Position numbers and translations under genes: made by a program. The notes beneath the pieces are model-generated. The model searched no databases and was not told the DNA's origin. It saw only the letters and a program-made list of their open reading frames with translations. Positions 31,269 to 44,573 of a DNA stretch of 64,000 nucleotides are shown piece after piece (within the stretch, counting starts at the first letter, position 1; every line of letters starts with the position of its first letter). Source of the DNA: Fontisphaera persica (GTDB taxonomy: Bacteria; Verrucomicrobiota; Verrucomicrobiia; Limisphaerales; Fontisphaeraceae); the NCBI RefSeq assembly GCF_024832785.1, contig NZ_CP116615.1:3844001-3908000 (forward strand), written 5' to 3'.

Positions 31269-31496
31269 AAGTCGCGCCACTCTATGCCGCCCGCCTCTCC
31301 AAGGCAATCATGGAAAGGCCGGTGAACCTGCGCCGGGACGTTGCCGAGTGCGCCGGTTTAGGGAGCCTGGGGTGTCCTGCTTGCCCGTGAACCTTGATGG
31401 CGGGCTTTTTCACTCGACAAAGGGCTCCATCTCACCGATACAAAAAACGGCGCGAGGTGCGCTGCTTTGCTGGCGGCTTCGCTGCGCCGAGCATCC

Positions 31497-32282
31497 ATGC
31501 AAATCCGACGCCTGATCAAAGAATTAATAAAAAAAACCGGCTATACCATCGTCCCGGTGCAAAGCAATCCTCTGGACGATCATGCCGACATTTACGACCA
31601 GGATGGCTTAAAAACCCATCACAATCATGACTTCATGAAAGACCCGGACTTCTGCCGGGCCTATGCACGCGGCGCCAAAGCCGCCGATGACTACCGCATT
31701 CATTGGCGCGTTCACATTGCCCTGTGGGCAGCCAGCCATGCTGCGCGGTTACCGGGGGATTTTGTGGAATGCGGTGTCAACTATGGCTTCATGAGTTCCG
31801 CCATTATGACTTTCTTGAACTGGGACACCTTGGGAAAGACATTCTATTTACTGGATACTTTCTCTGGCATGGACCCCCGTTATATTTCTCCTGAAGAGGC
31901 GCAAGCGGGCATTCTGGAAAAGAATCGTCAGCACTTGCAAACTGGCTTTTATATCGAGGGGGTGGAGGCCGTGCGCCGCAATTTCAGCGAATGGAAGAAT
32001 GTCCGCATCATTCAGGGGTCAGTTCCCGACACCCTGGCCCAGGTGGACACCGCCAGCGTGGCTTACCTGCACCTCGACATGAACTGCGCCCCGCCGGAAG
32101 CCGCTGCCTTACAACATTTCTGGAAGTTAATGACACCTGGGGCTGTGGCCTTGTTTGATGATTACGCATATCATGGATACGAGGCGCAAAAAGCCGCCCT
32201 GGACGCCGTGGTTAAGCCGTGGGGAGTGAGAATCGCCGCTTTGCCCACCGGCCAGGGGGTATTACTAAAACCGCCTCAATAA
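31497..32282 (+). CDS. TylF/MycF-like SAM-dependent methyltransferase
   Basis: 261-residue class I methyltransferase related to macrocin O-methyltransferase TylF, which methylates sugar hydroxyls. The SAM-binding start is GDFVECGVNYGFMSS at about 87-100, then FYLLDTFSGMDP, and the metal-binding HLDMNCAPP and FDDYAYHGY near the end. Start ATG 31497 (MQIRRLIKELIKKTGYTI) is chosen because it matches the usual N-terminus. It is followed by two glycosyltransferases in the same direction, with 31 bases to the next, so a role in capping or methylating a surface sugar is likely. Confidence 0.85.
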   Translation: MQIRRLIKELIKKTGYTIVPVQSNPLDDHADIYDQDGLKTHHNHDFMKDPDFCRAYARGAKAADDYRIHWRVHIALWAASHAARLPGDFVECGVNYGFMSSAIMTFLNWDTLGKTFYLLDTFSGMDPRYISPEEAQAGILEKNRQHLQTGFYIEGVEAVRRNFSEWKNVRIIQGSVPDTLAQVDTASVAYLHLDMNCAPPEAAALQHFWKLMTPGAVALFDDYAYHGYEAQKAALDAVVKPWGVRIAALPTGQGVLLKPPQ

Positions 32283-32313
32283 ACAATATGGGCTGCCGGC
32301 ACCCCGGTCCTCC

Positions 32314-33252
32314 ATGAGCAAGGTTTGTGCTGTCATCGTGACTTTTAATCCGCTTCCTTCTCTGGCGGAAAATCTGTCCGCTTTGCAGAATCAAGTGGAT
32401 GCCTTGGTCTTGGTGGACAACGGCACTTTCCCCCGCTGGCCTGCTCCCTTGCAGGCGGTGGTTAAAAAGCCAGGCATCACTTTTTTGCCGAACCCCGAAA
32501 ACCTGGGAGTGGCCACCGCTTTCAATCAAGGGCTGCGCCACGCGCTGAGCCAGGGGTATGAATGGGCGGTCACTTTTGACCAGGACAGCCAGCCGCCGCC
32601 GCAGTTCATGGCAGGCTTGTGGGAAGCATGGCAGGCTTGCCCGTTACGCGATCATGTGGCCGTCATCGCTCCCCAATATTGGCTCAAAGAGACTGCGCCT
32701 CCGGCCAGTCCAGCCGGGCGCCCTGCCTGGCGCCCTCTCCGGGTGGCCATGGCCTCGGGCAACCTGGTGCGTTTGCAGGCCGCGCAATCGGTGGGCTGGA
32801 TGGACGAATCTTTTTTCATTGACTACGTGGATTTTGATTTTTGCCTTCGCCTGCGTCGGCAGGGCTGGCAAATCATCCAGGCCACAAACGTCTGGTTGCC
32901 CCATCGGCTGGGCGCGCGTCAAAAACACCGCTGTTTGGGATTGGAGTTCGGCCTGGTGGCGCACAGCCCCTTGCGCCGCTATTACAATACGCGCAACCGG
33001 CTGGTTGCCTACCGCCGCCATGCCCTGAGGTTTCCGGGCTGGTTTTTGCATGACCTGGCCTGGTGGATGCTGGAGATGGGAAAAATCGCATTGTTCGAGG
33101 ACCAAAAAACCGCCAAATGCCGCGCCATCTGGCTTGGCTTGCACGATGGCTTCAGCGGTGTCATGGGGCCTGTCCGCTCTGCGACGGCCAGCCTCCTGCA
33201 ACCGTCCGAGCCGCCGCGCGGCTTCAACTCTTCCCCTTGTGCTCATGGCTGA
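32314..33252 (+). CDS. Family 2 glycosyltransferase (rhamnosyltransferase-like)
   Basis: 312 residues with a GT-A fold. VCAVIVTFNPLPSLAENL is the N-terminal nucleotide-binding strand, LVLVDNG follows, and the metal-binding D-x-D equivalent is TFDQDSQPP at about 88. DESFFIDYVDFDFCLRLRRQG at about 170 is typical of rhamnosyltransferase-type GT2 enzymes. The C-terminus is Pro/Ser-rich. The stop at 33252 overlaps the next gene by 8 bases, so the two transferases are made together and likely act on the same glycan. Confidence 0.88.
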   Translation: MSKVCAVIVTFNPLPSLAENLSALQNQVDALVLVDNGTFPRWPAPLQAVVKKPGITFLPNPENLGVATAFNQGLRHALSQGYEWAVTFDQDSQPPPQFMAGLWEAWQACPLRDHVAVIAPQYWLKETAPPASPAGRPAWRPLRVAMASGNLVRLQAAQSVGWMDESFFIDYVDFDFCLRLRRQGWQIIQATNVWLPHRLGARQKHRCLGLEFGLVAHSPLRRYYNTRNRLVAYRRHALRFPGWFLHDLAWWMLEMGKIALFEDQKTAKCRAIWLGLHDGFSGVMGPVRSATASLLQPSEPPRGFNSSPCAHG

Positions 33253-34171
33253 AAAAAACGCCATCTCTGCTCTGCCACCCGTCGGCGTGGTCATCGTCAA
33301 CTGGAACCTCAAGGAGGTTTTGCGGGCCACGCTGGAGTCCTGCCTGCAGATTGATTATCCGCAGTTCCAGATTGTGGTGGTGGACAATGGCTCCACCGAC
33401 GGCGCGCCCGACATGGTGCGGCGTGACTTTCCCCAGGTGCACCTCATCGCCAATCCCACGGGCATGGGCTATGCGCACGCCACCAGCCAGGGCATGGAGT
33501 GGCTGGTGCAGCAGGGCGCCCGCTATCTGTTCAGCACCAGTAATGATGTGCTCTTTGACCGCGCCATCCTGCGCGAGATGGTCGCTTACATGGAGAGTCA
33601 TCCGGAGGTGGGCATCGTGGGCTCCAAGGTGTATTTCCATGACCGGCCGGAGGTCCTCTGGCATGCGGGCGGCCACATTGGCTGGCACGGGCATTCTTTC
33701 CATTTCGGCTGGGAGCGCCGGGACCATCCCCGCTACCATCAGCCGCGGGAATGTGTGTTTGTCACCGGTTGCGGTTACATGGTCCGCGCCGAGCTGGCGC
33801 AACGGCTGGGCTATTTGAAAAGCGATTTGGTCTTTTATTCCGAGGACTCCGATTTTTGCCAGCGGGTGAAGCGGGCGGGTTACCGGGTGATGTACCTGCC
33901 CACGGCCAAACTGTGGCACAAAACCTCCACCACTCTGGCCAAAAACCGCGGCCTGCAATTACGGTACAGCACCCGCAACAACCTCTATGTGCTGCAAACC
34001 CATCGCGTGGGGCTGCCCTATCCCCTGACCCTGGGGATTCACTTGGCAGCCGTCTTGCCCCTCAAGATGTTGTTTTTCCTGCTGCTGGGCCAGCCTGCCA
34101 ATGCCGCCGGCATCTGGCGGGGCATCCGGGACTGGCGGCGGGGGCGGTATGGGATGATCAACGTTGATTAA
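33245..34171 (+). CDS. Family 2 glycosyltransferase
   Basis: 308 residues from ATG 33245. VGVVIVNWNLKEVLRATLESCL and IVVVDNGSTDGAPDMV are the GT2 N-terminal motifs; FSTSNDVLFDRA holds the N-D in place of D-x-D; FYSEDSDFCQRVKRAGYRV is the acceptor-side motif. Two hydrophobic segments at about 262-285 suggest membrane attachment. It overlaps the preceding GT2 gene. The next gene downstream encodes a 1202-residue exported protein, 135 bases away across an AT-rich gap. Confidence 0.9.
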   Translation: MAEKNAISALPPVGVVIVNWNLKEVLRATLESCLQIDYPQFQIVVVDNGSTDGAPDMVRRDFPQVHLIANPTGMGYAHATSQGMEWLVQQGARYLFSTSNDVLFDRAILREMVAYMESHPEVGIVGSKVYFHDRPEVLWHAGGHIGWHGHSFHFGWERRDHPRYHQPRECVFVTGCGYMVRAELAQRLGYLKSDLVFYSEDSDFCQRVKRAGYRVMYLPTAKLWHKTSTTLAKNRGLQLRYSTRNNLYVLQTHRVGLPYPLTLGIHLAAVLPLKMLFFLLLGQPANAAGIWRGIRDWRRGRYGMINVD

Positions 34172-34306: not shown

Positions 34307-37300
34307 ATGAGAAAAATTATGAGAAATATTCCCGCTGTCAAAGGAGTGTGGGCAATGGGGTTGTTCGTATTATTCTGCTGCGCCCCTAAAGCCATAATCT
34401 CGGCTGAGTGTACTCCCTCCCCACAAGGGTTGGTGGCGTTTTGGAAAGCTGAAAACAGTCCCTCTAATTCGGTGGGAGGTAGTGCTCTGGAAATTGCTAC
34501 AGGGATAACTTATGGTGAGGGAAAGGTGGGGAGATCATTTGTTTTTTCCGGATTCGCCAGTGCTGCCACTGCTTCTGCCAGTACAAACCTTAATGTGACG
34601 AGTTTTACATGGGAGGCATGGATATATCCCAGTAACACTGCATTTGCCCAACCTCTTTTTGAGTACGCAACTTATGGCGCTTATAGACACGGCCCGCTTC
34701 TCTGGCTGAGTATTGATTGCAGTGGAAACATCAATGCACCACGCCCCGGCAGTTTAATGGCCAACCTCGGGGACACCGTTGGGAGCGGCCATGTTTTTTG
34801 CACCACCAACACCCCCGTCGCGGCAAATACTTGGAATCACGTGGCCCTTTCCTACGATTGGACCAGCGGCATGGGGAAGATATATGTCAATGGTGTATTA
34901 TGTGGGGCCGAGTCCTTGGGAAGTTTTTATCCGCAAACCGCTTTGCCCCTAAATATCGGCCATCGCGCAAATTTTCAATTTAACGGAAGGATGGATGAAA
35001 TAACTCTCTATAATCGGGCATTAACAGACGATGAAATTCGACGGATATACGAGGCAGGCTCAAACGGCAAATGCCAGACGGTTCTCGCGCCAGCGATTTT
35101 GAATCAAGTGGAGGATAAATGGTACTTTGCAGGCACTACCGGACGTCTTGAGGCCGTGGTGACCGGTGACCAGCCGCTTTTTCTCCAATGGTTGTTAAAT
35201 AATCAACCTTTACCCGGCGAAACCAATTCCGTGCTGGTCTTGAATTCGCTCACCGCGGCAAACGAAGGGATATATTCTCTGATTGCCTCCAATGGTGGCG
35301 GAGCAGTTACGGGCACCATTGCTGTGATATGGGTGGCCACCGACGGCTGTGTGAATATGCGTAACGGCATGATTGGGTGGTGGCCTGGAGACAACGAAGG
35401 ATTGGATTTGATAGGCACCAATGCTGCGCAATTACTCAATGGCGCAAGTTTTGCTGAAGGCAAGGTACGTGAGGCGTTCAATTTTGATGGGACAAACGAT
35501 GCCGTAGTTATTCCAGCCCACCCTAGTTACAGAGTGAACAGTATTACTCTTGAAGGATGGATTTATCCCCGTGTTCACCAAAGTTTCCAGCCTCTGGCAG
35601 AATTTTCGCGCCCTTATGCCTACGGGGTCATTTTATGGATGAACATCCATAAATCTAGTATCTCGACGATTACTCCAGGTGCTCTATTCGCAAACATTAC
35701 TGACACCTGGGGAGGCTTCCACATGCTGAGCAGTCCGGCCGGAGCCATTCCCACCAATCAATGGACTCATGTGGCGCTTACTTACGATAGTAGCAGCGGC
35801 ATTGGGCGGCTTTTTATTAATGGTGAGGTGGTAGATTCACAAAATTTCGGTCCCTTTACGCCATATACCAGTGAACCACTAAATCTTGGCAATCGCCAGC
35901 CCACGTATTTCTTTGATGGAAAACTCGACGAGTTTGCCCTTTACAACCGGGCCTTGGCCAGCGAGGAGGTGCGCCGGATTTATCTGGCGGGCAGCCAGGG
36001 CAAGTGCCAGCCGGAGATTCCGCCTTCTGTCGCCGGTGGACCGCAACAGCTTACAGTGCCGCTGGGAAGTACATTGCGGCTGGCTCCGATTGTGCAAGGC
36101 ACCCGGCCATTAAGTGTTTGGTGGCAATTCAACGGCACAAATCTTACCGAGGAACCTGCCCTCCCTGAATGGGTCATTCCGGTGGCGACGCTTGCCCATA
36201 CGGGCGATTATTCCATCGTCTTGAGCAATGCCTTTGGTGTGGTTACAGCAATGGTGGCCCAGGTGACCGTGCAGGTGCTGCCGCCGACCATCACTGCACA
36301 GCCGCAGTCGCGGTCGGTCGTGGTTGGGGGTGAAGCCTCGTTCTCCGTCACTGCTTCGGGCACGCCACCGCTGGCGTATCAATGGTACTACAATGACGCG
36401 GCGCTGGCGGGGGCCACCAATGCCACGCTGGTGTTGACCAATGTGTCCTTGGCGCAATCCGGCAGGTATCAGGTGGTGGTAACCAACGAATTTGGCGCGG
36501 CCACCAGCGCGGTGGCCATGTTGACGGTGGAATTGCCCCAGCCCAAGCTCATCGTCAAGAACGTTTCAGGCATGGCGGGCGCGGTGATTACGGTGCCTGT
36601 GCTGCTGGTGGCCAACGGCACCGAAAACGCCATGCAATTCAGCCTGTCTTACAACGTCAGCCGCCTGCAGTTTGTGCAGGCGCAACTGGGCGCAGATGTG
36701 CCCACCGCCACCTTGTTCACCAATGGCACGCAAGTGGCCAATGGCCGCATTGGCCTGGCTATCAGCCTGCCGGCCGAGCAGTCCATCCCGGCCGGCACGC
36801 AGGAAGTGGCCCGTCTGGTATTCCAATCTATTGCGAGTTCGCAGACCACCTCGACGACCATTTCCTTCACCGGCTGGCCCCTGGCTCAACAGGTGGCCAA
36901 TGCCCGGGCGCAGGTGTTGCCCGCGCAATACTTCAGCGGCACGGTGTCATTGGTGCCGACCGAATACGAAGCCGATGTGGCGCCGCGCGGTGATCCCGAC
37001 CGCCAGGTGACGGTGATTGACTGGGTGCAGGTGGGCCGATACGTCGCGGCCTTGGACACGCCCGCCCCGGGTCGGGAGTTCCAGCGCGCCGACTGTGCGC
37101 CGCGCGGGGAGGGCGGCAATGGCATCCTCTCCGCCACCGACTGGGTGCAGGCCGGGCGTTTTGCTGCGGGTTTGGACCCCTTGATGGTGCTGAGCGGGCC
37201 GACCAACTTCGTTGATGTTTCAGACCCGCCGCCCGGGCTGGTGCGGCAGGCGCTGCCGGCCAAGGCCGCCAACGGCAATGCCTGCACGGTGACCGTGGCC

Positions 37301-37915
37301 GAGACAACCTTGGTTTTGGGTCAGGAGGTGACGGTGCCCGTGGTGCTGCATGGGAGCGGCGGGGAAGGCGCGCTGACCTTCAGCCTGCAATTTAATCCTG
37401 CCTCACTGACTTTTGTCCGGGCACAGGCGCTGGCGCCGGCCGGGGCGTCGGCCATCCTGAATCAAAATACCGCCCAGGCGGCCCAGGGCCGCGTGGGATT
37501 TGCCTTGTCGCTGCAAGCGGGCCAGAGCTTCAGCGCGGGCCAGCAGCAGGTGGTGCTGGTCACCTTCAGGGCCCAACCCGAGGCTCGCGGGCCGGTTGCT
37601 TTGAGCTTTGCCAGCCAGCCGGTGGCGCGCGAGGTGGCCACGGTGGATGCGCAACCTGTCGCCAACACCACGTGGACAGGCCGGGTGCTGCCGCTGGCGC
37701 TGCCGGCGCCGGAGGTCAGCACGAGCGCCGAGGCGGGCCGGCTTACCTTCCGCTGGCCGGCGGCGCTGAGCGGGGTGTATCTGGAGGCCACCGATGATTT
37801 GGCCAGTCCCAACTGGACCCGCGTCAACCTGACGGCCGAGGCAGTGGACGGCAAGATGCAGTTGAACATCCCGGCGGATGCGGCGCGGAAGTTTTATAGG
37901 CTGCGCACGGAGTAA
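34307..37915 (+). CDS. Exported LamG/Ig/cohesin-dockerin multidomain protein
   Basis: 1202 residues; start ATG 34307 has ribosome binding site AAGAAAGG seven bases upstream and a signal peptide to about 33. Two LamG/concanavalin-type domains lie at about 35-255 and 350-570, each ending LYNRAL...EIRRIY.AGS.GKCQ. Ig-like domains sit between and after them. At about 750-880 is a cohesin-like domain (VITVPVLLVANG, FSLSYNVSRLQFVQAQ), at about 885-960 two dockerin-type repeats (ADVAPRGDPD, IDWVQVGRYVAALD; ATDWVQAGRFAAGLDPL), at about 980-1120 a second cohesin-like domain. The C-terminus is a W...KFYRLRTE tail. The first half (to about 35900) has visibly lower GC and different codon use than the second half, so it may be a chimera. 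Confidence 0.88.
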   Translation: MRKIMRNIPAVKGVWAMGLFVLFCCAPKAIISAECTPSPQGLVAFWKAENSPSNSVGGSALEIATGITYGEGKVGRSFVFSGFASAATASASTNLNVTSFTWEAWIYPSNTAFAQPLFEYATYGAYRHGPLLWLSIDCSGNINAPRPGSLMANLGDTVGSGHVFCTTNTPVAANTWNHVALSYDWTSGMGKIYVNGVLCGAESLGSFYPQTALPLNIGHRANFQFNGRMDEITLYNRALTDDEIRRIYEAGSNGKCQTVLAPAILNQVEDKWYFAGTTGRLEAVVTGDQPLFLQWLLNNQPLPGETNSVLVLNSLTAANEGIYSLIASNGGGAVTGTIAVIWVATDGCVNMRNGMIGWWPGDNEGLDLIGTNAAQLLNGASFAEGKVREAFNFDGTNDAVVIPAHPSYRVNSITLEGWIYPRVHQSFQPLAEFSRPYAYGVILWMNIHKSSISTITPGALFANITDTWGGFHMLSSPAGAIPTNQWTHVALTYDSSSGIGRLFINGEVVDSQNFGPFTPYTSEPLNLGNRQPTYFFDGKLDEFALYNRALASEEVRRIYLAGSQGKCQPEIPPSVAGGPQQLTVPLGSTLRLAPIVQGTRPLSVWWQFNGTNLTEEPALPEWVIPVATLAHTGDYSIVLSNAFGVVTAMVAQVTVQVLPPTITAQPQSRSVVVGGEASFSVTASGTPPLAYQWYYNDAALAGATNATLVLTNVSLAQSGRYQVVVTNEFGAATSAVAMLTVELPQPKLIVKNVSGMAGAVITVPVLLVANGTENAMQFSLSYNVSRLQFVQAQLGADVPTATLFTNGTQVANGRIGLAISLPAEQSIPAGTQEVARLVFQSIASSQTTSTTISFTGWPLAQQVANARAQVLPAQYFSGTVSLVPTEYEADVAPRGDPDRQVTVIDWVQVGRYVAALDTPAPGREFQRADCAPRGEGGNGILSATDWVQAGRFAAGLDPLMVLSGPTNFVDVSDPPPGLVRQALPAKAANGNACTVTVAETTLVLGQEVTVPVVLHGSGGEGALTFSLQFNPASLTFVRAQALAPAGASAILNQNTAQAAQGRVGFALSLQAGQSFSAGQQQVVLVTFRAQPEARGPVALSFASQPVAREVATVDAQPVANTTWTGRVLPLALPAPEVSTSAEAGRLTFRWPAALSGVYLEATDDLASPNWTRVNLTAEAVDGKMQLNIPADAARKFYRLRTE

Positions 37916-38092: not shown

Positions 38093-38123
38093 AGGCGGGT
38101 ACCCATAAAACCCGGTGGTGAAC

Positions 38124-41100
38124 ATGCGTGATTTTGTTGTTTGGCAACGGCGCGGTTACAAGTGCATGGCAATTTTGTGCGTGGTGTTCTTGGCCGCGTC
38201 CTTCAGTGTTTCGGCTCAATCTCTATTGCGCGAGGTCTGGTACGGTGTGGAGGGCGGCAGTGTGGCCGATTTGACCAGTCATCCTGATTATCCTGCCTCG
38301 CCGGCGGAGTTTTCCTACGTGACCCTTTTTGAAGGCCCGGTGAACATCGCCGAGCGCTATGGCACGCGCATCCGGGGGTATCTCATTCCGCCGCAAACGG
38401 GCAATTACACCTTTTGGATAGCCAGTGACAATGCGAGCCAGTTGTTTTTGAGCACGAATGAGTTGCCGGCCAACAAGCGGCTGATTGCCAGCGTGCAAAA
38501 CTACACCGGCTCGCGCGAGTGGACGCGGGAGCCGAATCAGCAATCGGCGCCGGTGCCGTTGGTGGCCGGGCAGCGTTATTACGTGGAGGTGTTGCACGTG
38601 GAGGGCACGGGGGGGGACAATGTGGCGGTGGGCTGGCAATGGCCGGACGGCACGCTGGACCGGCCCATCACCAGCCCGTACCTGGCGCCGTGGGTGCGCT
38701 CGACCAATCCGCCGGTTGTCCTGCAACAGCCCCAGAGTGTGGTGGCGCAGGAATCCAGCCAGGTTTCCTTCACGGTGGTGGCCGACGGGGACGAGCCGCT
38801 CCGTTATCAATGGTATGAGGACGGGGTGGCGTTGGACGGCGAGATAACGGCCACGCTGTTGTTCTTCCGGGTGGCGCGGGAAGACAGCGGGCGCCAGTAT
38901 CGGTGTGTCATTTCCAATCCTTTTGGCGCAGTCACCAGCGCGGTGGCCACGCTCACGGTCACGCTGGACATCACGCCGCCGGCGCTGTTGCGCGTGCATC
39001 CGGCCACCAACGCCCTCGTGCGCCGGCTGGAGGAGGTGGAGGTGCATTTCAACGAGCCGGTCACCGGTTTGCGCGCGCAGGATTTGCTCATCAACGGCCA
39101 GCCCGCCACCCATCTGGCGGGGCTTGGCTCGGGGCCTTACCTTTTCCGGTTTCCCGCGCCGGCGCCCGGGCCGGTCACGTTTTCGTGGGGGCCGCACCAG
39201 ATTACCGATTACGCGGAGGTTTCCAACCGTTTTGCGGGCGGCAGTTGGACGGTGCATTACCAGCCGGACGCGCCGGCGCCACAGGTGCGCCTCAATGAAA
39301 TCGTGGCCAGCAACGAAAAAGGGATATTGGATGAAGACGGGCAGGAGGTGGACTGGATTGAACTTTACAATGCCGGCACCAACGCGGTGGATTTGGGGGG
39401 GTGGTCATTGACGGATGACCCCGCCCTGCCGGGGCAGTGGGTATTTCCTTCGGTGACGATGGGGCCGGGCGAATACCTGCTGGTGTTTGCCTCCGGCAAA
39501 GACCGCCGCGCCACTGGTGGCACTAACCGGTTGCACACCAATTTCCAGCTCGCCGGCAACGGGGAATACCTGGGGCTGTATGACGGTAACAGCCCGCGCC
39601 AGGCAGTGAGCGAGCTGGCGCCAAGCTTTCCCGAGCAGCGCAACGACATCGCCTATGGTCTGGATGCCCAGGGCCAATGGCGTTATTTCCTGCAAGCCAC
39701 TCCCGGCCAGCCCAACTCCGGCCTGACGGCCACCGGCATGGTGAGCGAGCCGGTGTTCAGTGCGCGCCGCGGCTTTTACAATGTGTCCTTCAACCTTCAG
39801 CTTTATTGCCCCACGCCGGGGGCCGTCATCAAGTACACCACCGACGGCCAGCCGCCCACCGAAACGGTGGGGCTGGTGTACACGGGAAAAATCGCCGTCA
39901 CCAGTACGCGCATGATTCGGGCGGCGGCGTTCAAGCCGGGACATCTCCCCTCGAAGGTGGTGACGCACACCTACCTGCTGGGGCAAACAGCGGCCATTGC
40001 TTCCCTGCCCGTGCTTTCGCTGGTGACGGCCGAGAACAACCTCACCGGCCCCACGGGCATCATTGGCATCAACGGCGGCACCTACTCCAACGGCGTCTGG
40101 CAGGGGGTGAACCCGGGGGATTATTTCAACCCCACCAATCATGGCATTGCATGGGAGCGGCCGGTATCGGCCGAGTTGATTCGCTACGACGGCGCCGAGG
40201 GTTTCCAGATTGACTGCGGCATTCGCGTGCATGGCAGCGACCACATCCGCCCCCGCTACACCACGACCAGCAAGTTCAGTTACCGCCTCTATTTCCGGGG
40301 CGATTACGGCGAGGGCCAACTGGTATATCCCCTGATGGGCGATTCGCCGGTGCAGACGTTTGACCGGCTGGTGATTCGGGCCGGGAAAAACGATTTGACC
40401 AACCCTTTCATCAAGGACGAGCTCATCCGCCGCCTGGCCATTGACATGGGGCAGGTGAATGTGCGCGGCACCTTCGTCAACCTGTTCATCAACGGCGTGT
40501 ACAAAGGTTACTACAATCCCACCGAGCGGGTGGACGACACCTTTTTCAAAGCGTGGCTGGGCGGCGAGGTATGGGACGTGGTGGGGGTGCGCAGCGAGGC
40601 CATTGACGGCAACAACCTGGACTTCAATGCCATGCGCTCATTCATCAGCGGCACGCGCATGACCAACAACGCCAACTACGTGGCCGCCGCGCGCTGGCTG
40701 GACCTCACCAATTTTGTGGATTACCTGCTGGTCAACATTTACGGCGCCATGCGCGACTGGCCGCACAACAACTGGCGCGCCGCCCGCGAGCGACGGACGG
40801 GGGCGCTGTGGCGGTTTTACATCTGGGATGCCGAGGGGGCCTTCGGCACGTTTGGCCAGCCGGTGGATGAAAGCACCTTTACCAACGCGCTGGTGACCGG
40901 CACCTCCGAGATTCCGCGGCTTTACCAGGCCCTGGTGCAAAACCCGGAGTTCCGGTTGCTGTTTGCCGACCGGATTCAAAAACACTTCTTCAATCAGGGC
41001 GCGCTCACGGACAGCAACATCGTGGCGCACTTCCAGCGCATGCGGCAGGAATTGCTGGGGGTGATTCCCAGCATGCAGACCACCATCATTGATACGTGGG

Positions 41101-44100
41101 TGCCGCAGCGCCGGCCCGCCATTTTCAGCCACTTCCCGCAATATGGCCTGGCGGCCTACACCAACGCGCCGGTGTTGCGTCAGCATGGCGGGCGCGTGCC
41201 GCCGGGGTACCAGCTCACCATGAGCACCACGGCCGGACAGATTTACTACACCACCAACGGGACCGACCCGCGCGTACCCTTCACTGGTGAAGTTTCACCG
41301 GAGGCCCGGCTGTACACCGGCCCGCTGACACTGGCGCAGAGCCTGCCCATCCGGGCGCGCGCCCTGGCCGGCACGCAGTGGAGCGCGCTCACGGCGGCCG
41401 ATTTTCAGGTGGGCGAACTGGGCGTGCCGGTGCGCATCAGTGAAATCATGTATCAGCCCGTGGGGGGCGGGGCGTATGAGTACGTCGAATTGTTGAACAC
41501 CGGCGGGGCGGCGGTGAACCTGGGCAACTATTCCTTTGTGGGCATTGATTTCAAATTCCTGCCGGACACCTGGCTGGCCCCCGGTCAGCGGCTGGTCATC
41601 GCCTCGGGGCAAAGTCCCGCCGACTTCCAGACACGCTACCCGGCAGTGGCGGTGGCAGGGTGGTTCGGCGGCAATCTGCGCAACGAAGGCGAGCGCATAG
41701 ATTTGCTGGACTTCAACGGGCGGCTGGTGGATTCGGTCACCTACAACAACAAAAATGGCTGGCCCGGCGCGGCGGCGGGCGGCGGGGCCTCGCTGGAATT
41801 GGCGGACGCGTCGGGCGATTCCAGTTCCCCCGCCTCATGGCGCGCCAGTCTGGTGCCCAATGGCACGCCGGGCGCGCCGCCGGCGCTGCCGCCGCCTTCC
41901 CCCATCCTGCTCCATGAACTGATGGCGGACAATGCCGGCGCGGTGACCAACGGCGGCGCCTTTCCGGACTGGGTGGAGCTGTACAATCGCAGCGCGGAAC
42001 CGGTACTGCTCACCGGCTGGCGATTGCGCGATGCCGGGACCAATGTCTTTGTCTTTCCGGAGAACACCATCCTGGGCGCCGGCCAATATCTAGTGCTGTG
42101 GATGGACCACGAGACGGCTGCGCCCGGATGGCATGCCGGCTTTGCCTTGAGCCGACGCGGGGACGCACTGTTTTTGGAAAATTCCGCAGGGCAAACAGTG
42201 GATGCCATTGAGTTCGGACAACAATTGCCCAATTACACGCTGGGCCGGGTGTCTTCCGGGGCGTGGGGCTTGTGCCTGCCCACGCCGGGGGCAGCGAATC
42301 AGGCCGCCCCCACGGCGTCCACCACCAACCTTTGGATTAATGAGTGGCTGGCCAACAGCCTGCCCGGCCAGCCGGACTGGGTGGAATTGCACAACCGCCA
42401 TCCCTCGCTGCCGGTGGCGGTGCAGGGTATCTATCTGGGCACCAGCAATGCCCTCCATCGCGTGCGGCATCCTGCTTTTGTACCCGCTGGAGGTTTCCTG
42501 ACGTTCGAGGCGGATGAAAACCCCGGCCCGCAACACTTGAACTTCAAGTTGCCCGCCGCAGGCACCGCGCTTTTCCTGTATGACGAGCTGGGATTCGAGC
42601 TGCAGAAGGTGGTCTATGCGGCCCAAAGCCAGAATGTATCCCGCGGCAGCCTGCCGGATGGCACGTCGTCGCTCAGCAACTTCACCGCCAGCCAAAGCCC
42701 GGGTTTTTCCAACTACCTTGCGGTGCCCACGGGCATTTGGATTAACGAGGTGATGGCGCGTAACACCGCTTTTCGGACCAACGAGGCCGGCAATTATGCG
42801 GATTGGATTGAGTTGTATAACACCAACAATGTGCCGGTTTCCCTGGCGGGCATGAGCTTGTGCCTGGACCGTCCCGGCGAGAACCGCTGGTATTTCCCGC
42901 CCGGCCTGGTCCTGGAGCCGCGCGGTTTTCTCCTCATCTGGTGTGATGGCCAGCAGCCCGCTTCGACCAATGCCGGCGGCTGGCTGAACACCGGCTATGG
43001 CATCGAAGCGGCGGGCGGCGGCGTGTATCTCTATACGGCCGACGGGCGGGTCGCCGATGCCGTGGAATATGGTTTCCAGCCAGCCAACTGGAGCGTGGGG
43101 CGGGTGAGCGGGGCCTGGCGTCTGCTGGCCGCCCCCACGCCCGGCGCCACCAACAGCGCGGCGGCCTCCCTGGCCCCGGCCAGCAACCTGCGGCTCAACG
43201 AATGGTATGCCAACAGTCTGCCGGGCGAGGATGACTGGGTGGAGATTTACAACATGGCCAGTCTGCCGGCGGAGCTGAGCGGCCTGTACCTCACGGACGA
43301 CCCCTCGGTGGCGGGGCAAACTCGATACCAGTTCCCGCCGCTGTCGTTCATTGCCCCCACCGGTTTTGTGCAGGTCATCCTGGACAAAAACCCGGAGCGC
43401 GGCGGCAATCATGCCGCGTTTTCCCTGGCGGCCATCGGGGAGACGCTGCGGCTTTACAACCCCAGTTTTGGAGTCTTGGACAGCGTGGACACCGCACCCG
43501 TGGAGCCGGGAGTGGGCCAAGCCCGCCAGCCGAATGGCGCGGCCAGCATTTTCTTCACCACCCGCCTGACCCCTGAGGCGCCGAACAACATCTTTTACCC
43601 GCTGACCATTTTTACGCATCCGGTCAGTGTGGTGGCCACCAACGGCAATGCGGTCTCGTTCTCGGTGTGGGCGCAGGGCACAGGCAACCTGCGTTATCAA
43701 TGGTTCCAGAATGGGCAGCCGCTGGCCAATGCCACCAACGCCTCCCTGGCGTTGAGCAATGTGGGCAGCAATCACCTGGGCCAGTATTTCGTCCGCCTGA
43801 CCGACGATGTGGATACGCTGGACAGCGCGCCGGCCACGCTGACCATTCTGTTCCGGCCCAGTTTCTATTTGTCCCCTTCCAATAAGATTGCGCTGCTGGG
43901 GGATTCGTTGACCTTCCGGGTGGGGGTGGATGGCACCGCGCCCCTCACTTACCGCTGGCAGCGCGGGGCCAGCACCATCTTTGCCACCACGGTGGATGTG
44001 CCGGAGCTGCGACTGACCAACCTCACCACCGAAGCCGCCACTTATTATCGCGTCATTGTCACCAATGTGGCCAGCTCAGGGGTGGGCAGCCGGCTGTTCT

Positions 44101-44573
44101 TTGTCCTGGTGGTCACCAATACGCCCGCCAGCCGGGTGGTGGCGGAGGGGGAAACCGTGACCTTGAATGTCGGAACCACCGGCGCGGTGGCGGTGGCGCG
44201 GCAGTGGCTCTTCAACGGGCAGCCGCTGGCGGGGCAGACCAATGCGAGCCTGGTGATTTCCAACTTCACTGTGGCCCAGGAAGGCGTGTATGCGGTGCGC
44301 CTGACCATTCCCGAAGATGAATGGACCACCCCGCCTGCCTGGTTGACGCTGCCGCGGCCCATTGTGCTGGATGCCGCTCCCGCTCCCACTCCCGCAGGTT
44401 TGCTTCTGCATCTGGCGGCAAATCCCGGATTGACATACGTGGTGGAGGGCAGCACGGATTTGCGGCAGTGGCAGCCATTGCTTTCCGTGGTTTATACCAA
44501 TGGCCCCCTCCTGCTGCCTTACGCCAGTAATGGCTCATATCAGTTTTACCGCCTGCGCCGGGCCGGTCCGTGA
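38124..44573 (+). CDS. Giant exported PA14/CotH/lamin-tail/Ig protein
   Basis: About 2149 residues from ATG 38124; ATG 38166 (MAILCVVFLAAS) would remove 14 residues before the signal peptide. In order: PA14 domain (about 35-190), Ig-like, a second beta domain, lamin-tail domain 1 (RLNEIVASN, DWIELYNAG, about 390-530), a chitobiase-C-like repeat, a CotH-type kinase domain (about 640-960, with FVNLFINGVYKGYYNPTE, DWPHNNWRAA and FYIWDAEGAFG), a second chitobiase-C-like repeat, then five further lamin-tail domains, three Ig-like domains and a Y-V-V-E-G-S-T-D-L...FYRLRRAGP tail. CotH kinases phosphorylate secreted proteins in Bacillus; whether this one is active is not known. It has its own promoter and follows a strong terminator. 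Confidence 0.9.
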   Translation: MRDFVVWQRRGYKCMAILCVVFLAASFSVSAQSLLREVWYGVEGGSVADLTSHPDYPASPAEFSYVTLFEGPVNIAERYGTRIRGYLIPPQTGNYTFWIASDNASQLFLSTNELPANKRLIASVQNYTGSREWTREPNQQSAPVPLVAGQRYYVEVLHVEGTGGDNVAVGWQWPDGTLDRPITSPYLAPWVRSTNPPVVLQQPQSVVAQESSQVSFTVVADGDEPLRYQWYEDGVALDGEITATLLFFRVAREDSGRQYRCVISNPFGAVTSAVATLTVTLDITPPALLRVHPATNALVRRLEEVEVHFNEPVTGLRAQDLLINGQPATHLAGLGSGPYLFRFPAPAPGPVTFSWGPHQITDYAEVSNRFAGGSWTVHYQPDAPAPQVRLNEIVASNEKGILDEDGQEVDWIELYNAGTNAVDLGGWSLTDDPALPGQWVFPSVTMGPGEYLLVFASGKDRRATGGTNRLHTNFQLAGNGEYLGLYDGNSPRQAVSELAPSFPEQRNDIAYGLDAQGQWRYFLQATPGQPNSGLTATGMVSEPVFSARRGFYNVSFNLQLYCPTPGAVIKYTTDGQPPTETVGLVYTGKIAVTSTRMIRAAAFKPGHLPSKVVTHTYLLGQTAAIASLPVLSLVTAENNLTGPTGIIGINGGTYSNGVWQGVNPGDYFNPTNHGIAWERPVSAELIRYDGAEGFQIDCGIRVHGSDHIRPRYTTTSKFSYRLYFRGDYGEGQLVYPLMGDSPVQTFDRLVIRAGKNDLTNPFIKDELIRRLAIDMGQVNVRGTFVNLFINGVYKGYYNPTERVDDTFFKAWLGGEVWDVVGVRSEAIDGNNLDFNAMRSFISGTRMTNNANYVAAARWLDLTNFVDYLLVNIYGAMRDWPHNNWRAARERRTGALWRFYIWDAEGAFGTFGQPVDESTFTNALVTGTSEIPRLYQALVQNPEFRLLFADRIQKHFFNQGALTDSNIVAHFQRMRQELLGVIPSMQTTIIDTWVPQRRPAIFSHFPQYGLAAYTNAPVLRQHGGRVPPGYQLTMSTTAGQIYYTTNGTDPRVPFTGEVSPEARLYTGPLTLAQSLPIRARALAGTQWSALTAADFQVGELGVPVRISEIMYQPVGGGAYEYVELLNTGGAAVNLGNYSFVGIDFKFLPDTWLAPGQRLVIASGQSPADFQTRYPAVAVAGWFGGNLRNEGERIDLLDFNGRLVDSVTYNNKNGWPGAAAGGGASLELADASGDSSSPASWRASLVPNGTPGAPPALPPPSPILLHELMADNAGAVTNGGAFPDWVELYNRSAEPVLLTGWRLRDAGTNVFVFPENTILGAGQYLVLWMDHETAAPGWHAGFALSRRGDALFLENSAGQTVDAIEFGQQLPNYTLGRVSSGAWGLCLPTPGAANQAAPTASTTNLWINEWLANSLPGQPDWVELHNRHPSLPVAVQGIYLGTSNALHRVRHPAFVPAGGFLTFEADENPGPQHLNFKLPAAGTALFLYDELGFELQKVVYAAQSQNVSRGSLPDGTSSLSNFTASQSPGFSNYLAVPTGIWINEVMARNTAFRTNEAGNYADWIELYNTNNVPVSLAGMSLCLDRPGENRWYFPPGLVLEPRGFLLIWCDGQQPASTNAGGWLNTGYGIEAAGGGVYLYTADGRVADAVEYGFQPANWSVGRVSGAWRLLAAPTPGATNSAAASLAPASNLRLNEWYANSLPGEDDWVEIYNMASLPAELSGLYLTDDPSVAGQTRYQFPPLSFIAPTGFVQVILDKNPERGGNHAAFSLAAIGETLRLYNPSFGVLDSVDTAPVEPGVGQARQPNGAASIFFTTRLTPEAPNNIFYPLTIFTHPVSVVATNGNAVSFSVWAQGTGNLRYQWFQNGQPLANATNASLALSNVGSNHLGQYFVRLTDDVDTLDSAPATLTILFRPSFYLSPSNKIALLGDSLTFRVGVDGTAPLTYRWQRGASTIFATTVDVPELRLTNLTTEAATYYRVIVTNVASSGVGSRLFFVLVVTNTPASRVVAEGETVTLNVGTTGAVAVARQWLFNGQPLAGQTNASLVISNFTVAQEGVYAVRLTIPEDEWTTPPAWLTLPRPIVLDAAPAPTPAGLLLHLAANPGLTYVVEGSTDLRQWQPLLSVVYTNGPLLLPYASNGSYQFYRLRRAGP

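Follow-up and report, generated by a model that had tools for sequence, protein, structure and literature searches.

Why would one exported protein carry both halves of a cohesin-dockerin pair? The question is raised by an open reading frame (ORF) of Fontisphaera persica, located at positions 34307-37915 of the forward strand in the window analyzed here (the whole stretch of 64,000 nucleotides, positions 3,844,001 to 3,908,000 of contig NZ_CP116615.1 in NCBI RefSeq assembly GCF_024832785.1). It encodes 1202 amino acid residues, and two repeats with a DWVQ motif follow a cohesin and precede another. On balance, I favor the reading that this is a surface protein, exported and apparently without catalytic activity, whose C-terminal part is a self-complementary cohesin-dockerin-cohesin cassette, which would serve self-association rather than enzyme recruitment. 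Self-association seems the likelier of the two because the two cohesins found in the genome share one chain with the single dockerin of this type found there. A sequence-only reading of this DNA had described two cohesin-like domains on either side of a dockerin-type repeat pair in 1202 residues, and this layout was confirmed by the ORF, by Pfam, and by profiles. The features are as follows, the domain bounds of the cassette (locus L053) being those of local profile matches.

34307..37915, + strand: whole ORF, with LamG, Ig, LamG, Ig, Ig, cohesin, dockerin-like pair, cohesin, and a C-terminal tail (Pfam, sequence)
36542..36949, + strand: cohesin 1, residues 746-881 (Pfam Cohesin, AlphaFold2, VIA, local profile 1e-44)
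36962..37186, + strand: dockerin-like module, residues 886-960, a pair of F-hand-like repeats whose calcium loops each contain an insert (alignment A2, hhalign, local profile 1e-35)
37187..37276, + strand: linker of 30 residues from the dockerin module to cohesin 2 (local profiles)
37277..37684, + strand: cohesin 2, residues 991-1126 (Pfam Cohesin, A1 profile, AlphaFold2, local profile 1e-41)

Both outer domains are cohesins. The Pfam Cohesin model (PF00963) gives 50.5 bits for the whole protein in two stretches, and the two domains scored separately reach 35.5 bits (cohesin 1) and 25.1 bits (cohesin 2), both passing the cut-off of 24.1. In an AlphaFold2 model of residues 740-1133, built from 14 sequences, the predicted local distance difference test (pLDDT) score is mostly above 90 over model residues 21-140 of cohesin 1. 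It is 72-95 in blocks of ten for cohesin 2, which was modeled only as part of this longer piece and has a similar strand pattern. In the PDB, Foldseek matches the model best to 3l8q, a dyad of type II cohesins (E 1.3e-13), with cohesin 2 forming part of the match, and a noncellulosomal cohesin of Archaeoglobus fulgidus (2xdh) is matched at 1.1e-9. The VIA-align rows mainly cover model residues 2-148, which is cohesin 1, and barely touch cohesin 2. Cohesin 1 was aligned with 6kgc_A, a cohesin solved in complex with a dockerin, at Z 18.9 (root-mean-square deviation 2.1 over 137 residues), and with 2xdh at Z 17.4. Against the sequences of solved cohesins, the profile of cohesin 1 reaches 1.5e-6 at best, and that of cohesin 2 (A1 profile positions 252-348) matches 5nrk_A and 5nrm_A at 7.6e-5 and 7.9e-5. 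Alignment profiles were required for these matches; a phmmer search of the PDB sequences with the 438-residue region found only an unrelated porin (E 1.7). For the two outer domains, the cohesin profile search and the structure prediction that the sequence-only reading had proposed both came out in its favor, and the models have good confidence there.

Is the middle module a dockerin? The identification rests on relatives and on a profile-profile comparison and not on a Pfam match in the protein itself, in which Dockerin_1 (PF00404) gives none. Among 33 modules of this type, three are matched by Dockerin_1 at E up to 0.1 (best 9.2e-5). The profile of the module was compared by hhalign with 13 canonical dockerins from the same class (25 of 31 loci were found with a sequence pattern, and the set was thinned at 80% identity). 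The comparison gave 91.6% and a score of 35.1 over 57 columns, with both repeats in register. As controls, 50 column-shuffled profiles reached at most a score of 16.1 and 3.8%, and a cohesin profile reached 0.15%. The module therefore has the homology claimed for it in the sequence-only reading, while its fold was modeled at low confidence only. That it is a dockerin by homology appears well supported. It is very improbable that it would be some other EF-hand-like or TSP3-like repeat. This idea would suit the missing Dockerin_1 match, the low pLDDT of the helices in the AlphaFold2 model, and the search of PDB sequences with the module profile, in which none of the seven matches is better than E 0.2 (four of the seven are cellulosomal chains by name, at 0.55-1.6). 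However, it does not sit well with the in-register alignment to canonical dockerins, far above every shuffled profile, or with the three modules recognized by Dockerin_1. Relatives with a 12-residue loop and the near-constant presence of a cohesin beside the module also speak for a dockerin.

The failure of Pfam is explained by the alignment, since most members carry an insert in the calcium loops. The two loops of the F. persica protein are given below, with loop positions in parentheses. The position numbers follow those of the canonical dockerin loop, and the register across the insert is my own placement.

36974..37021, + strand: calcium loop of repeat 1, residues 890-905, with D890 (1), insert 892-895, D896 (3), D898 (5), Q900 (7), T902 (9), and D905 (12), then the helix WVQVGRY (sequence)
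37091..37141, + strand: calcium loop of repeat 2, residues 929-945, with D929 (1), insert 931-935, G936 (3), N938 (5), S942 (9), and D945 (12), then the helix WVQAGRF (sequence, alignment)

All residue counts are by column over the 33 rows of alignment A2. The insert follows position 2 of each loop and is usually A-P-R or A-P-L plus one or two residues. In repeat 1, it has one to six residues in 28 of the 33 modules (four residues in 21, six in five) and is absent from five; in repeat 2, it has five residues in 27 modules and 4-13 in the remainder. The five modules without the first insert (L018, L025, L026, L029, and L047) have a 12-residue dockerin-type loop there, and that of L025, E-G-D-I-D-G-D-G-K-L-T-A-A-D, is a canonical loop. 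Positions 1 and 12 are Asp in every module in both repeats, and position 5 is Asp or Asn in 32 modules (repeat 1) and in all 33 (repeat 2). A lack of Asp/Asn calcium ligands had been named as what would speak against a dockerin. The F. persica protein has Asp at positions 1, 3, 5, and 12 of repeat 1 and keeps Asp or Asn at positions 1, 5, and 12 of repeat 2, but position 3 of repeat 2 is Gly. Judging from these residues, calcium binding by repeat 1 is plausible. In the helices after the loops, W is kept in 27/33 (repeat 1) and 32/33 (repeat 2) and a G-R pair in 25/33 and 26/33. A Clostridium thermocellum dockerin has a Lys-Arg contact pair (PMC4728124), to which the G-R pair, as I have placed it, may correspond.

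Is the cassette found in other bacteria? The cassette or a part of it was matched in 19 of the 286 genomes of the class, F. persica included. The near-full-length matches are 31-44% identical, or 68% within the same genus; some matches are partial, and one (G040) spans a single cohesin only. The dockerin module was found at 29 places in 18 of the 286 genomes, with no more than 19 candidates being scored in each genome. All 29 share an open frame with a cohesin, in the order cohesin-dockerin-cohesin in 21, dockerin-cohesin in five, and cohesin-dockerin in three. In a phylum sample of 387 genomes, three have the module; one of them lies outside the class and likewise has cohesin-dockerin-cohesin. 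Three acidobacterial genomes carry seven, eight, and seven modules. One acidobacterial contig (L124, G559:C614) has five modules within 12 kb, with a cohesin after each.

In total, 59 of 60 non-redundant modules share a chain with a cohesin, a count to be read with the fact that the seed modules of the profile were found with the whole cassette as query and that more divergent lone dockerins could be missed. A cohesin lies on both sides of 36 modules, on the C side only of 20, on the N side only of three, and on neither side of one. Some of the 20 have fewer than 80 residues of frame on the N side, where a cohesin could not show, and two of the three N-side cases end at a contig edge. The gap from cohesin 1 to the dockerin is 1-5 residues in 37 of 39 cases. 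On the other side, 56 of the 58 modules with readable downstream sequence, that of F. persica among them, are followed by a cohesin after 16-50 residues. These gaps suggest a rigid unit of cohesin 1 and dockerin with a flexible tether to cohesin 2. In a tree of the 68 cohesins from 34 full cassettes, the N-side and C-side cohesins are largely separate, with eight label changes (shuffled mean 23; none of 500 shuffles as low). The cassette is thus conserved in related bacteria, beyond what chance would give.

What stands in front of the cassette? In the F. persica protein, the N-terminus resembles a signal peptide by eye, and Pfam finds two LamG stretches (overlapping with Sialidase-N and Pentaxin matches) and Ig-type domains besides Cohesin. 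No cellulose-binding family was found in it by Pfam at E up to 1. The sole NCBIfam match of the protein, TafC, falls in the LamG part and was rejected (69.7 bits, far below the cut-off of 410). In seven relatives' cassette proteins, the front holds LamG, Ig, DUF11, or HpiC1-like domains (the last named after a cyclase) or nothing recognized, and no glycoside hydrolase was listed by Pfam at E up to 0.001. Such stalk- or lectin-like LamG, Ig, and DUF11 parts would suit a structural spacer, in which the three domains of the cassette no longer bind and act as a stiff stalk of a surface protein. The wide divergence of the cohesins (mean pairwise identity 31% and 33% in the 34 full cassettes) and the loss of the position-3 ligand from repeat 2 in all 33 modules point the same way. 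Nevertheless, the dockerin is the most conserved domain (53%), and across Verrucomicrobiota and Acidobacteria nothing else in the cassette is as well kept as its helices (W-V-Q-x-G-R), for which a spacer has no obvious need. I consider the spacer quite unlikely.

If the cassette binds, what are its partners? With the Pfam Cohesin model, the F. persica genome (G000) has two matches over the cut-off, both in the 1202-residue chain. The dockerin profile of this type gives one match, again in this chain, at E up to 10 with all 42 candidates scored. At the sensitivity used, the genome yielded neither a further cohesin above the cut-off nor another such module; the genome scan for more such repeats, which the sequence-only reading had suggested, turned up nothing beyond the chain already known. 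A third cohesin match (L008, 11.1 bits) is below the cut-off, lies in repeats that look CARDB-like by eye within an ORF of 10,034 residues, and was not counted. One further dockerin is over the Pfam cut-off; it is canonical and belongs to the same giant ORF, and four more matches are below the cut-off. This ORF lies around 1738053-1762637 of G000:C1 (L001, L008, L082, and L083), with an LEPRVLLSADL motif in the frame of L008, and a genome of the same genus (G013) has an ORF of 10,043 residues with a similar dockerin. The several dockerin-bearing enzymes expected around a cellulosome scaffoldin were not found in the F. persica genome. The suggestion that the protein recruits other dockerin-bearing enzymes is thus unsupported there. 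Since no other cohesin was found, the likely partners of the dockerin are the cohesins of its own protein.

The giant ORFs offer another possibility. The protein might be an adaptor whose cohesins receive the canonical dockerin of the 10,034-residue ORF or of other proteins, while its own dockerin docks elsewhere. Published schemes join dockerin and cohesin in one adaptor (PMC11557425, PMC6461901), both F. persica and its congener have a giant ORF with a canonical dockerin, and some relatives have a downstream gene starting with a cohesin. Yet F. persica yielded no third cohesin above the cut-off that could receive the dockerin of the module, the next gene in the window (38115-44573) has no Pfam cohesin, and among the candidates scored, 10 of the 18 module-bearing class genomes lack a canonical dockerin at E up to 1e-4. 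An adaptor role seems rather unlikely to me.

How, then, might self-association work? The dockerin would bind, with calcium, a cohesin of its own kind, either in the same chain, where the flexible linker would let it reach the C-terminal cohesin, or in another copy. As each chain has one dockerin for two cohesins, the products would be closed monomers, small rings, or branched chains, which would present many copies of the LamG lectin-like domains on the cell or outside it. Links between copies are a tentative suggestion from the sequence, and closure within one chain is unlikely, less probable than such links. The earlier idea that copies polymerize or fold back on themselves fits the data best, although the pairing itself is a prediction. 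For the family as a whole, I would cautiously propose a dockerin subfamily, marked by inserts in both calcium loops, that has become tied to its own cohesin. The cohesin-dockerin-cohesin or dockerin-cohesin cassette may then be a self-assembly device, independent of an enzyme complex, that links copies of lectin-like surface proteins or, in the genomes with seven or eight modules, paralogues.

Several observations weigh against self-association. Known adaptor scaffoldins carry a dockerin and cohesins of different specificities in one chain, so a shared chain does not prove pairing. The three-helix dockerin fold itself is poorly modeled, as the two helices that AlphaFold2 places at the expected F-hand helix sites have a mean pLDDT of 52.9 for the module alone and below 50 in context. 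Position 3 is Asp or Asn in only 15 of 33 modules in repeat 1 and in none in repeat 2, and the first loop of L050 has lost more ligands. One module of the 60 (L122) stands at a C-terminus without a cohesin. The third N-side case (G164) ends in a stop codon, so that its dockerin is C-terminal, and another frame just downstream resembles a signal peptide followed by the beginning of a cohesin. A clean split of the cohesin tree into two clades appears in 0% of 200 bootstrap trees, in a bootstrap that had not settled. Finally, at least five genomes (G096, G264, G201, G135, and G164) have a downstream frame that starts within 1 kb and encodes a cohesin close to the N-terminus; the true number may be higher, as many other modules have less than 1.5 kb of downstream sequence. 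For these five relatives, partners in trans are plausible. Three of the five downstream proteins were scanned: two are long and Ig/cadherin-like, and one has Ig and RHS repeats. Two of the downstream ORFs (L163 in G135:C195 and L162 in G201:C15; 4169 and 4201 residues) have three cohesins near the start and follow a dockerin-cohesin gene, the first having Ig and RHS.

Cohesin and dockerin in one chain are already known. A. fulgidus reportedly has noncellulosomal cohesin and dockerin proteins. Anaerobic methanotrophic (ANME) archaea have a noncellulosomal protein with a dockerin and up to five cohesins (PMC9012536, whose references include Bayer 1999 and Peer 2009), which likewise joins them in one chain outside cellulose degradation. 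The present family differs by its loop-insert dockerin subtype and by the dockerin-cohesin linkage in nearly every copy found. The sequence-only reading held that cohesins and dockerins normally sit on different proteins; this was imprecise, since the adaptor scaffoldins of cellulosomes carry both in one chain (PMC11557425). Compared with what is described there, the F. persica dockerin lies between the cohesins, its loops have inserts, and LamG and Ig domains stand in front; the genome has no other cohesin found, and its sole other dockerin over the cut-off is in the 10,034-residue ORF. The planctosome model of freshwater Planctomycetes, proposed to gather peptidases, includes a lamin-tail-domain protein and an adaptor whose single chain holds dockerin and cohesin (PMC6461901). 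The adaptor chain is shared with the present case, and a lamin-tail protein is encoded next to it too; in contrast, this neighbor has no Pfam cohesin, and no link to peptidases was sought or observed. Within the class, a Pfam cohesin lies in the same open frame at 14 of the 113 places matched by Dockerin_1. These canonical chains also join dockerin and cohesin, with the dockerin first in L142, but their loops have no insert. At L142 and comparable loci (genus g39, family f25; genomes of 2.7-3.5 Mb), a chain of about 1315 residues begins with what by eye resembles a family 31 glycoside hydrolase and continues with a canonical dockerin and then a cohesin. Another genome (G011) has 16 canonical dockerins and no cohesin match at E up to 0.001.

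As for the neighborhood, the next gene (window 38115-44573, + strand) encodes 2152 residues with PA14, Ig, six lamin tail stretches, CotH kinase, and chitobiase-C-like domains. Just upstream (31467-34171, + strand) are genes for a TylF-like methyltransferase and family 2 glycosyltransferases, the first glycosyltransferase (32314-33252) being judged by eye.

No paper describing a cohesin-dockerin-cohesin cassette was among the literature matches listed. As far as the literature searched shows, what is apparently new is a dockerin subtype with loop inserts that is almost always linked to a cohesin. Dockerin_1 misses 30 of the 33 modules scanned, so a survey that relied solely on Dockerin_1 would leave most such modules undetected. 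Few known protein pairs bind as tightly as cohesin and dockerin, and protein engineers make wide use of this pair. With the plug and the sockets in one chain and no other cohesin found in the genome, self-assembly or self-closure of bacterial surface proteins becomes directly testable.

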